Assembly (NCBI GenBank): GCA_017557405.1
Contig: JAFYYV010000024.1
Location: forward strand, 1-56,617
Direction: 5' to 3'
Origin: Prevotella sp.
GTDB lineage: Bacteria; Bacteroidota; Bacteroidia; Bacteroidales; Bacteroidaceae
Length of the DNA: 56,617 nucleotides
The translations under genes and the position numbers were made by a program. The notes beneath the pieces are model-generated. The model was not told where the DNA came from. It did not search any database and saw only the letters and a program-made list of their open reading frames with translations. Below are positions 9,792 through 56,617 of this stretch, one piece after another. Each line of letters starts with the position of its first letter. Within the stretch, counting starts at the first letter, position 1.

Positions 9792-9864
9792 GCACCCTTA
9801 GCTCAGTTGGTAGAGCAACTGACTCTTAATCAGTGGGTCTAGGGTTCGAGCCCCTAAGGGTGTA
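9792..9864 (+). tRNA. tRNA-Lys(CTT), copy 1
   Basis: 73 nt. Acceptor GCACCCT pairs with AGGGTGT (one G-T pair), discriminator A; D-arm GCTCAGTTGGTAGAGC; anticodon loop CTCTTAA gives anticodon CTT (reads AAG); T-loop TTCGAGC. CCA is not encoded. Confidence 0.95.
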
Positions 9865-9904
9865 CATTTCTTGAGAGGAAAAGTGCTTCGGAGTCGCAAT
9901 TTTT

Positions 9905-9977
9905 GCACCCTTAGCTCAGTTGGTAGAGCAACTGACTCTTAATCAGTGGGTCTAGGGTTCGAGCCCCTAAGGGTGTA
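9905..9977 (+). tRNA. tRNA-Lys(CTT), copy 2
   Basis: All 73 nt are identical to the copy at 9792-9864, starting 113 nt downstream. The 40-nt spacer has no promoter of its own, so it is probably processed from one precursor. CCA is not encoded. Confidence 0.95.
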
Positions 9978-9991
9978 CATAAAAACGGAAT

Positions 9992-10062
9992 GGTGCGTTA
10001 ACAAAGCGGTTATGTGGCGGTCTGCAAAACCGTATAGAGCAGTTCGACTCTGCTACGCACCT
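9992..10062 (+). tRNA. tRNA-Cys(GCA)
   Basis: 71 nt. Acceptor GGTGCGT pairs with ACGCACC; discriminator T73, as required for Cys; anticodon loop CTGCAAA gives GCA. The next bases, 10063-10065, are CCA, so the end is encoded here, unlike in the two tRNA-Lys genes. Confidence 0.95.
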
Positions 10063-17935: not shown

Positions 17936-18592
17936 TTAGATACCCAGAGCCTTCTTGGTGGCGTCAGCGGCATTGTCGACAGCCTTACCAGCAGCATCTT
18001 TGGCACCCTCAACAGCGTTGGAAGCGGCGTCTTTTGCATTGTCGACAGCCTTACCAGCGGCGTCAACAGCACCAGCAGCAGCGTCTTTTGCACCCTCAAC
18101 GGCGTCAGCAGCAGCGTCAACAGCATCAGAAGCAGCATCCTTCACGAAGTTGGAAGCGTCGATGCCCAGAGCCTTCAAAGCGTCGGTAGCACCTGTGAGA
18201 GCTTCAACAGACTCGGTGGGAAGGGCGGCAATTCCGTCAACAAGACCAGAGATGGTAGCGTTGGTACCAACAACAGCCTTCACAGCCTCAGCGTTCTCCT
18301 TCAAGAAGTTCTGAACCTTAGAGATGTACTCCTTAGCAATGCCGGGATTAACGGCGATGAACTCAGCAACTTTGGCTTTGATAGCCTCCAGAGCGGTCTG
18401 CAGAGCACTAGCGTCCTTCTGCTCAAGAGTAGCTGACAACTGGCTGATAGCGTCTTCAGCAGCGGCATTTGCCTCCTCGGCCAGAACGGCTACGCTGTCA
18501 ATTGCTTCCTCAACGGGTTTCTCGGTTTTGTTTCCGCAACTTGCGAAAGTCATAGCAGCTACAGCTATGGCCATCATGAAAAATTTCTTCAT
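17936..18592 (-). CDS. Alanine-rich amphipathic-repeat lipoprotein
   Basis: 218 aa. The signal peptide ends at lipobox Cys19 (FASC), followed by GNKTEK, with no acidic export signal, so it is probably periplasmic. Residues about 150-215 are built from 11-residue repeats of the type DAxxxAVEGAKDAA and KAVDNAKDAAS. The DNA repeats with a 66-bp (22-codon) period: CATTGTCGAC at 17971 and 18037. This pattern is that of amphipathic helices as in LEA proteins and apolipoproteins. The middle part is also helical and Ala-rich. A role in envelope protection or membrane binding is inference; I know no characterised homologue. It has its own promoter at 18646-18639. Confidence 0.8.
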   Translation of the reverse strand: MKKFFMMAIAVAAMTFASCGNKTEKPVEEAIDSVAVLAEEANAAAEDAISQLSATLEQKDASALQTALEAIKAKVAEFIAVNPGIAKEYISKVQNFLKENAEAVKAVVGTNATISGLVDGIAALPTESVEALTGATDALKALGIDASNFVKDAASDAVDAAADAVEGAKDAAAGAVDAAGKAVDNAKDAASNAVEGAKDAAGKAVDNAADATKKALGI

Positions 18593-22290: not shown

Positions 22291-22380
22291 AATAATTAAG
22301 TTTACTATTTTAAATTGATTCTATTTCGTACTAATCTCAAATTGTCAATTCGTTGATAACCAATAAGTTCCATCGAGCTT

Positions 22381-22490
22381 GTCATTTGTGGTCTTTGACG
22401 TTGTCATTGCTATCCTTTGACCGTGTCATTGCATAGCTTTGACCGCCTCATTTGTGGTCTTTGACAACGTCATTGATGCCCTTTGGGAAT
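22381..22490. repeat. 22-bp tandem array A, five units
   Basis: Units 22381-22402, 22403-22424, 22425-22446, 22447-22468 and 22469-22490 are each exactly 22 bp. Plus-strand pattern: (G/C)TCATT, a 7-nt core, CTTTGAC-type end, 3-nt linker. Cores read on the plus strand are TGTGGTC, GCTATCC, GCATAGC, TGTGGTC and GATGCCC. The array ends one base before the stop codon of the GH51 gene. It is not coding in any frame (22 is not a multiple of 3) and is not a hairpin terminator. Confidence 0.9.
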
Positions 22491-35027: not shown

Positions 35028-35117
35028 AGATTTTATGAAAATCTTCCCATATCTTGCATTTTGACTCAACATTTTGACCTCTACGAGAGAAGTGAAAATT
35101 GGGGGGTGTAGGACAGT

Positions 35118-35435
35118 TGTGACAATTAGGACAATTAGACACGCCTTTTTTCCACGCCCCTCTTTCGAGTTATTCGCACAGGGAATTGAGTATCAATAAG
35201 TTATAATAATTATTTAATAATAATTAATAATAATTATATATATATTAACATATATATTATATAATATATACACATTTAGATAGATATATTTGTTGATTTG
35301 TAGATTTATATATCTATTATCTGCGGAGAAAACTGCTAGTTGAAAAAGCATCAATCATGTTCAATGCTCAATGTTCAATGTTCAATGATTTCCGACCGTG
35401 TAAAAAATGACTGTCTAATTGTCCCAATTGTCACA
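35118..35435. repeat. AT-rich block bounded by 24-bp inverted repeats (MITE-like)
   Basis: The arm 35118-35141 is the reverse complement of 35412-35435 with one mismatch. Each arm contains two copies of GACAATT in direct order. They enclose 270 bp, about half of it almost pure A/T. There is no ORF inside of a size to encode a transposase, so a miniature non-autonomous element or a structured region is possible. I see no clear target-site duplication. Confidence 0.65.
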
Positions 35436-35495: not shown

Positions 35496-35583
35496 GCCAT
35501 TGTGGCCCAATGGCGTTGTCAAAGATATGGAATGACACGGTCAAAAGGGTGCTTTGACAGACTCAAAGGGCCACAATGACGAA
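35496..35583. repeat. 22-bp tandem array C, four units
   Basis: Units 35496-35517, 35518-35539, 35540-35561 and 35562-35583, all 22 bp. The last three follow the (G/C)TCAAA(G/A) ... TGAC + 3-nt pattern. The first is more palindromic: GCCATTG-TGGCC-CAATGGC. It lies 34 nt beyond the stop codon of the uxuB gene. Confidence 0.8.
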
Positions 35584-45241: not shown

Positions 45242-45351
45242 GTGAAAGACCATCAATGACGTTGTCAAAGACCACAAATGACAAGGTCAAAGCTATGCAA
45301 TGAGGCGGTCAAAAGCCACAAATGACAAGGTCAAAGGGCATCTTTGAGAAA
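45242..45351. repeat. 22-bp tandem array B, five units
   Basis: Units 45242-45263, 45264-45285, 45286-45307, 45308-45329 and 45330-45351. Plus-strand pattern GTCAAAG, 7-8 nt core, ATGAC, 3-nt linker. Cores (after GTCAAA) are GACCATCA, GACCACAA, GCTATGCA, AGCCACAA and GGGCATCT. GACCACAA, GCTATGCA and GGGCATC also occur in the reverse complement of array A. Confidence 0.9.
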
Positions 45352-56422: not shown

Positions 56423-56510
56423 TGTCATTGATGGTCTTTGAGCCTGTCATTTGTAGTCTTTGACGTTGTCATTGCATAGCTTTGACACACTCATTCCATA
56501 GCTATGACAA
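56423..56510. repeat. 22-bp tandem array D, four units
   Basis: Units 56423-56444, 56445-56466, 56467-56488 and 56489-56510, followed by a degenerate stretch to about 56540. Cores include GATGGTC, TGTAGTC and GCATAGC on the plus strand, matching words in arrays A and B. The remaining bases to 56617 are purine-rich (repeated GAACAGA-type words) without a gene. Confidence 0.88.
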
Positions 56511-56617
56511 AATGATGTCAAATTGTCATGCTGAAGAGATGAACAGATGGCGAACAGAAAAGCGAACGAACAGATGAACAGTTTATTTCATGAATGTGCA
56601 ATTGTGACTTTATTTAT

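Follow-up and report, generated by a model that had tools for sequence, protein, structure and literature searches.

The contig examined here raises the question of what short arrays of 22-bp units are doing in a Prevotella genome, and what keeps their spacing so regular. The window is the whole stretch that was analysed, namely the entire contig C12 (56,617 bp) of a 3,557,533-bp genome in 54 contigs (G000). A first-pass annotation had described four arrays with 18 units in it, and direct reading confirmed both their number and their placement. In a scan with the unit pattern allowing up to 3 mismatches, 18 matches were found in the window against 0.84 expected, the maximum among 100 shuffles being 4. 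The arrays and the repeats adjoining two of them are the following:

22342..22371, plus strand: remnant adjoining array A, TTGTCAATTC then GTTGATAACCAATAAGTTCC (comparison by eye)
22381..22490, minus strand: array A, five 22-bp units with, on the minus strand, the cores GGGCATC, GACCACAA, GCTATGCA, GGATAGCA and GACCACAA (direct reading and pattern scan)
35496..35583, plus strand: array B, four units, the outer ones degenerate (direct reading and pattern scan)
45242..45351, plus strand: array C, five units, GACCATCA / GACCACAA / GCTATGCA / AGCCACAA / GGGCATCTT
56423..56510, minus strand: array D, four units, GCTATGGA / GCTATGCA / GACTACAA / GACCATCA
56530..56600, plus strand: part of an AT-rich palindromic repeat (GAACGAACAGATGAACAGTTT) adjoining array D, truncated by the contig end

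The arms are degenerate in some outer units of these arrays. As had been proposed, the cores recur: GACCACAA is found in A and C, GCTATGCA in A, C and D, GACCATCA in C and D, and GGGCATC in A and C. The first and last cores of array B, GTGGCCC and GGGCCAC, are reverse complements of each other. By eye, the remnant adjoining array A corresponds to the hairpin half of a copy (C16:210526) of the long F1 element described below, and the repeat adjoining array D resembles one (F2) found by other arrays. Families of AT-rich palindromic repeats, with ends carrying GAACGAACAGTTGAACAG, AATGACAAATGAC and GAACAGTTCGAACAG, lie at similar distances from arrays (window 35100-35400 and 56530-56600; C44:146467, C44:160616, C44:185330, C16:266334, C16:274625, L003 and L005). 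A further short repeat, AACTGCGAGTAAGTGAG...CTATCCCGAACGTGAGCAGTTTCG, occurs between or beside arrays (L108 3850-4340, L067 300-400, C16:382038-382080). The window also contains three consecutive tRNA genes (9792-10062) and tandem repeats of 33, 54 and 21 bp (17969-18136), whose periods are multiples of three, like those of coding repeats.

Across 43 arrays with 218 units, the unit consensus is GTCAAA-N9-TGA[C/G]-N3, and most arrays (31/43) have 4 or 5 units. Among the core words two main classes stand out, CTATG/CATAG and CCA/TGG, and they are distributed by position: inner units carry CTATG 51 times and CCA 23 times, while outer units carry CTATG 11 times and CCA 45 times (Fisher p 2e-8; 31 arrays of 4-5 units, with 13 units of other class excluded). 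In the related genome RUG11493 (G285), an AT-rich unit variant, GTAAAATAAATTATTTTAC, is a 19-bp palindrome about a central A and keeps the 22-bp register next to GTCAAA units. A similar array at C44:165433 was excluded, having AT-type units, from the half-word and pairing statistics. Since this variant is a 19-bp palindrome in 22-bp register, the repeat unit is a 19-bp imperfect dyad (GTCA...TGAC) followed by a 3-bp linker, which places the dyad centres 22 bp, or about two helical turns, apart. The fixed register, fixed arms and recurring cores first noticed in the window are borne out by the arrays elsewhere in the genome.

A repeat confined to the window, which would speak against a dispersed family, is not what was found. 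Genome-wide, TGAC-N3-GTCAAA-N9-TGA has 96 exact matches, 64 distinct places when counted from the listing, against 0 in a reversed control. GTCAAA-N9-TGAC-N3-GTCAAA with up to 2 mismatches has 400 matches against 1 in the control, near-palindromic units scoring on both strands. A sample of six contigs (1,056,950 bp, non-randomly chosen) contains 46 arrays, around one per 23 kb, which would scale to about 155 per genome. None of the 33 sampled arrays outside long elements lies mostly within a predicted gene, genes being called by a simple codon-score script, no published caller. All four window arrays do lie 1-54 nt past a stop codon, as was first noted, but this is not a general rule: the nearest gene boundary is a stop in 17/30 arrays, against 15.3 expected by random placement in the same gaps. 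Nine of the 30 are within 64 nt of a gene, all at the stop and none at the start. No excess of 3' positions or convergent genes was found for the arrays. The sampled arrays show neither a gene-orientation bias nor, by local GC skew, a replication-strand bias (long elements 6 same and 9 opposite, other arrays 15 and 18). Mapping against stop codons, strand and replication, suggested as a check in the first-pass annotation, thus showed no general 3', orientation or GC-skew bias.

The dispersed family suspected at first does exist, although it had been missed that a longer element with conserved ends surrounds many of its arrays. Flank similarity to another array is found in 33/43 arrays, partly through other repeats. 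The main long family, F1, is about 400 bp long, in the order leader, array, tail, and has at least 27 near-full-length copies including the query, besides partial or split rows, with 40 of 179 candidates scored. The other 26 copies are 65-83% identical to the query, and their net length difference to it is zero in 22, 1-2 bp in 3 and exactly -22 in one. Some copies are broken, such as the split copy C39:40655-41016 (net difference about -10). F1 is noncoding, with 2-11 stops in every frame in all 14 copies aligned below, and a decayed coding repeat was rejected on these stops together with the 22-bp steps.

In Hallella mizrahii and UBA7764, the long element measures 353-460 bp, and most of the arrays read are enclosed by two element ends, TTGACAAAA-21-TTCTAGAGA on the left and ...GTCAGTTTATTCAACA on the right. 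A model of the right end finds at least 75 and at least 83 places in the two genomes, respectively, and the left end is present for 71 of 77 Hallella right ends by the rule used. These 71 elements reduce to 61 by the right-flank 12-mer or to 69 by the last 60 nt, near-orthologues remaining among them. Across 200 genomes of the genus, the same model matches 14, strongly 4 (G062, G101, G130, G190), and it has no match in the genome of the window. In the F1 tail, compared by eye, a GACAAA-like end and TCTAGA lie as far apart as in the Hallella form; on this resemblance, unsupported by the right-end model, we regard the two as probably one superfamily. Short ends of about 8 bp, GACAAAA or TACAAAA on the left and TGACA on the right, are found in 57 of 69 Hallella elements, and no clear inverted ends were seen by eye in the F1 copies of our genome. 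The short arrays may have arisen from the long element by deletion, or may be its compact form. At four Hallella loci (L168, L180, L188 and L184), a long, nearly perfect palindrome, AAAAAGGTACTTTGACGAGAAATTCTCTAGAGAATTTCTCGTCAAAGTACCTTTTT, directly follows the array.

Inverted features of this kind could point to an RNA or cruciform element, in which the arrays would act at mRNA 3' ends as terminator-like hairpins. Hallella arrays contain inverted units and the long palindrome, the long element has units 3 and 5 in inverted orientation, and two-sided change is seen in 10 of its 38 predicted pairs. Of six folded strands from four arrays, four are more stable than shuffles (z -2.39 to -5.08), as expected from the arms, but the other two are weaker (z -2.04 and -1.53). 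Moreover, the arrays fold no better than controls in which the arms are kept and the vocabulary is randomised (mean z -0.08, 25/41 arrays), complementarity of mirror linkers is no better than permuted (p 0.35), the first and last cores give p 0.43, and the net covariation term of RNAalifold (+0.76) is unsupportive. With neither 3' or convergent-gene bias nor word-specific RNA pairing, the mRNA 3'-end role proposed in the first-pass annotation is not supported, and we consider this explanation very improbable. Rfam matched only the three tRNAs in the window, and its six rows for three Hallella loci all score well under the cut-offs of the families concerned; a described structured RNA was rejected, as no Rfam model matched the arrays at these places.

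The long element also conserves its length. We aligned 14 F1 copies scoring >150 by multiple alignment (MAFFT; 91 pairs, 72.5% identity); 15 long copies had scored >100 in the G000 sample, of which C16:84628 (113.5) was left out along with lower-scoring partials. There are 1.30 gap openings per 100 substitutions, or 1.13 in the left part, 0.97 in the array and 1.82 in the right part. All 26 gaps within the array are of 22 nt and all 92 outside it of 1 nt. Pairwise alignment of the same copies gives 1.16 gap openings per 100 substitutions, the 107 gaps being of 1 nt in 64 cases, of 22 nt in 22 and of other lengths in 21 (nine of 13 nt). For orthologous intergenic DNA the rate is 10.10 and for coding DNA 0.92, both from BLAST alignments and hence from a different aligner than the element figures. 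The controls that share the aligner are other dispersed repeats, with 10.48 in F2, 6.67 in F4 (one gap) and 3.64 in F3 (two gaps). Orthologous arrays with 30-bp margins show 8.05, on 7 gaps only.

The Hallella elements also vary in steps. The 61 unique lengths have a period of 10.75-11 bp (R 0.79 and 0.77), against R 0.27 at period 22 (69 elements), and fall into groups near 353, 364, 375, 386, 397, 407 and 418 bp, plus two of 460. The 11-bp step comes partly from two subfamilies offset by about 11 bp, each varying by 22, and the copies are non-independent. Ungapped pairs of equal length have a median identity of 54%, compared with 27% when shuffled and 31% when slid by one base. No clear 11-bp peak emerged when the conserved columns of the long element were subjected to Fourier analysis (strongest at 28.0 and 20.7). 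A length conserved more than the sequence fits the suggestion that the units are protein sites recurring on the same DNA face. This conservation is best explained by a complex on double-stranded DNA with phased contacts, and it could equally reflect a host function.

Range was examined in related genomes with patterns that would miss arrays having other arms. The exact GTCAAA-N9-TGAC-N3-GTCAAA is absent from all 59 other genomes of the relatives sample. A stricter pattern is found in 5/398 genomes of the genus, with 15 matches in our own, 5 in RUG11493 and one each in three others; its control had one match elsewhere. Among the matches listed, arrays are present in RUG11493, Hallella mizrahii, UBA7764, RGIG7148, RGIG6979, SUG386, RUG13423, RUG753, S28M and an ERR1855550 bin. 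The family is present in relatives, some of them carrying the same arms and register with different cores. CTATG and CCA words are used in our genome, RUG11493, RGIG7148 and RGIG6979, CAACCGAGA, ACACTGAGA and TCGCCGAGA in Hallella and UBA7764, GGGCCGTAG in SUG386 and GAGCATGTT in RUG13423. Most sampled congeners have no match by the patterns used. Two Psychrobacter matches, each a single pattern match with no array beyond it, were taken as chance. Viral contigs searched with the exact pattern, and plasmids and phages searched with one element as query, gave no match, and a phage or plasmid origin was rejected on these queries.

RUG11493 is about 77-90%, mostly 80-85%, identical to our genome in syntenic blocks, which allows arrays to be compared locus by locus. 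Of 19 syntenic gaps holding an array in RUG11493, our genome has a detected array in 10 and none detected in 9; the loci were picked for having arrays, and absence means below a detection rule that misses diverged arrays, the one at L106 among them. This count leaves out L067 (inverted matches), L109 (rearranged), and L135 and the second L146 match (unbracketed), while L063, L066 and L089 duplicate other loci. Three of the nine array-free gaps (L120, L122, L123) carry a whole F1 element in RUG11493, and no clean insertion junction was found in the presence/absence gaps of this pair. Nine array pairs from shared gaps were aligned. Four are the same at least in part (L076, L121, L129, L091), L121 being nearly identical and L129 having a core replaced as a block, in register. 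The other five are unlike in type or orientation (L107, L110, L119, L128, L141), with L119 sharing the first unit.

At L076, compared with C44:171780, exactly one 22-bp unit was gained or lost in otherwise nearly identical arrays. Such a change, like the 22-bp steps within long elements, is what would be seen in a plain minisatellite growing and shrinking without function by slippage or unequal exchange. However, this would leave unexplained the equally strict length of the non-repeated left and right parts of the element, its conserved ends and the positional order of the cores, and we find it improbable.

A stronger competitor is that the arrays are host-owned chromosome sites, phased for a nucleoid-associated or chromosome-organising protein with an architectural role and a specificity varying by species. 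The conserved length and register would be expected of them, as would an intergenic position with no gene-orientation or GC-skew bias and the lack of matches in viral contigs, plasmids and phages by the queries used. Both species have an array in the gap at 10/19 syntenic loci, when at most about 15% of gaps of at least 100 bp hold one (46 arrays, 302 gaps), and this points the same way; so does the presence of arrays of different type or orientation in 5 of the 9 aligned pairs. On the other hand, most sampled congeners have no match, presence differs at about half of the syntenic loci, copy number and vocabulary vary by species, and we have no candidate protein. We judge host-owned sites unlikely, if worth keeping in view.

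Movement was also sought in the Hallella mizrahii and UBA7764 pair, where many elements occupy corresponding positions and no clean insertion difference was seen; thus there is no evidence of recent movement there. Scanning of offsets around 61 Hallella elements gave no excess of matching flanks indicating a target-site duplication. No clear gene was found between the ends at 77 Hallella right ends, six lone ends being traced for a few kb, and no autonomous related element was seen among the copies read and the matches listed. Breaks of synteny between the two genomes coincide with elements or lie no more than several hundred bp away from them at L207/L211 versus L194, L224/L213 and L233/L242, as expected from recombination between copies. 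At L228 (1300-2313), about 1 kb of extra DNA directly follows the Hallella mizrahii element and is absent in UBA7764; it has AATAATAATTATTGTTACA near both ends and a longest open frame of 112 aa.

No description of the array family was found in the open text of PubMed Central, subscription papers being outside this scope. The units are contiguous, with 3-bp linkers and recurring cores in place of unique, repeat-length spacers, and CRISPR was rejected on this arrangement. The nearest described thing is BrickBuilt, a minisatellite/MITE of Porphyromonas gingivalis with 19 reported copies and contiguous 23-nt units (PMC4596501). As far as the available part of that description goes, both families belong to the same bacterial order, consist of contiguous units embedded between a leader and a tail in a longer intergenic element, and have a limited host range (PMC4596501), whereas the Prevotellaceae unit is 22 bp with a dyad, steps in length by about 11 bp, exceeds 19 copies and uses several interchangeable words. 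The IS5-like terminal repeat of BrickBuilt, GAGACCTTTGCA, is missing from the terminal 30 nt of the Hallella copies and of our own: its mean mismatches are 5.26 against 5.66 shuffled in 69 Hallella ends (best 3), and 5.83 against 5.70 in 15 own copies (best 5).

REP/BIME and RAYT systems, in the parts of the literature consulted, share high-copy intergenic short repeats with mixed units in both orientations (PMC3733652, PMC2817692, PMC3116915). The arrays differ in that no GTAG/CGTC-tagged hairpin was seen in them and no units lie directly by the Y1_Tnp gene. Spread by a RAYT (TnpA-REP), as the first-pass annotation had allowed for, would find some footing in the REP-like copy number and intergenic position, and in the presence of one Y1_Tnp-domain gene in the genome, with a diverged array (L106 about 183-290, a weak match) some 0.9 kb upstream, beyond another gene. 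With about one array per 23 kb, finding one less than 1 kb from any particular gene is not unusual and may be chance. The stretches read directly at both ends of this single gene have no units and the unit is not a tagged hairpin, so that mobilisation by a RAYT appears highly improbable. The Y1_Tnp gene itself (L106 1216-2271; C16, about 298 kb) has a long C-terminal extension and adjoins an inverted repeat, AATCTTACATCTGACAG...CTGTCAGACTGTAAGG; a 149-aa gene beside it is presumably HU-like.

The long element is small, noncoding, dispersed and present in high copy number, as a MITE is. It resembles MITEs, so far as the portion of the source seen describes them, in being a small noncoding dispersed element with short similar ends, and departs from them in that neither a target duplication nor an autonomous partner was found and indels are strongly suppressed (PMC10969869). 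The patchy distribution among lineages, the lineage-specific cores and the presence or absence at syntenic loci suggest MITE-like spread in trans. The ends of Tn7 or Mu, with phased transposase sites of about 22 bp in a row, resemble the arrays; the survey for a transposase of this kind covered seven flanking genes of the window.

Our preferred reading, held tentatively and just short of an even chance, is a MITE-like dispersed element whose units are putative phased sites of a dimeric DNA-binding protein, probably the mobilising one. We infer from the DNA both protein binding and mobility, and a single protein doing both. A dimeric protein would fill the phased dyads along one face of the helix, and the resulting complex would fail when the spacing shifts by less than one turn. 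Because such a complex would not tolerate sub-turn shifts, indels would be purged, while letters and words could drift or be replaced block by block. The element would be spread by a trans-acting protein whose sites the units are.

A bolder reading, possible though doubtful, is that some Prevotellaceae have nucleoprotein assembly sites chromosome-wide, each 22-bp unit being a pair of 11-bp half-sites of one turn. Length would be selected in whole turns with the sequence nearly free, and the species-specific words would be read by each species' own version of the binding protein. If this is true, the word lists of the species would be a DNA counterpart of the species dialects in uptake signals.

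In bacteria, repeats between genes usually erode through numerous small indels, and the control repeats and intergenic DNA analysed here do show frequent small indels. By contrast, noncoding copies of this element hold their length almost as strictly as coding DNA, even with a quarter to a third of their positions changed. A length kept in steps of one or two turns is a sign of a phased protein-DNA complex readable from sequence alone. The arrays thus offer a direct route to seek a DNA-binding or transposition system in abundant gut bacteria, and the way their core words vary by lineage within an unchanging frame would reveal how such specificity changes.
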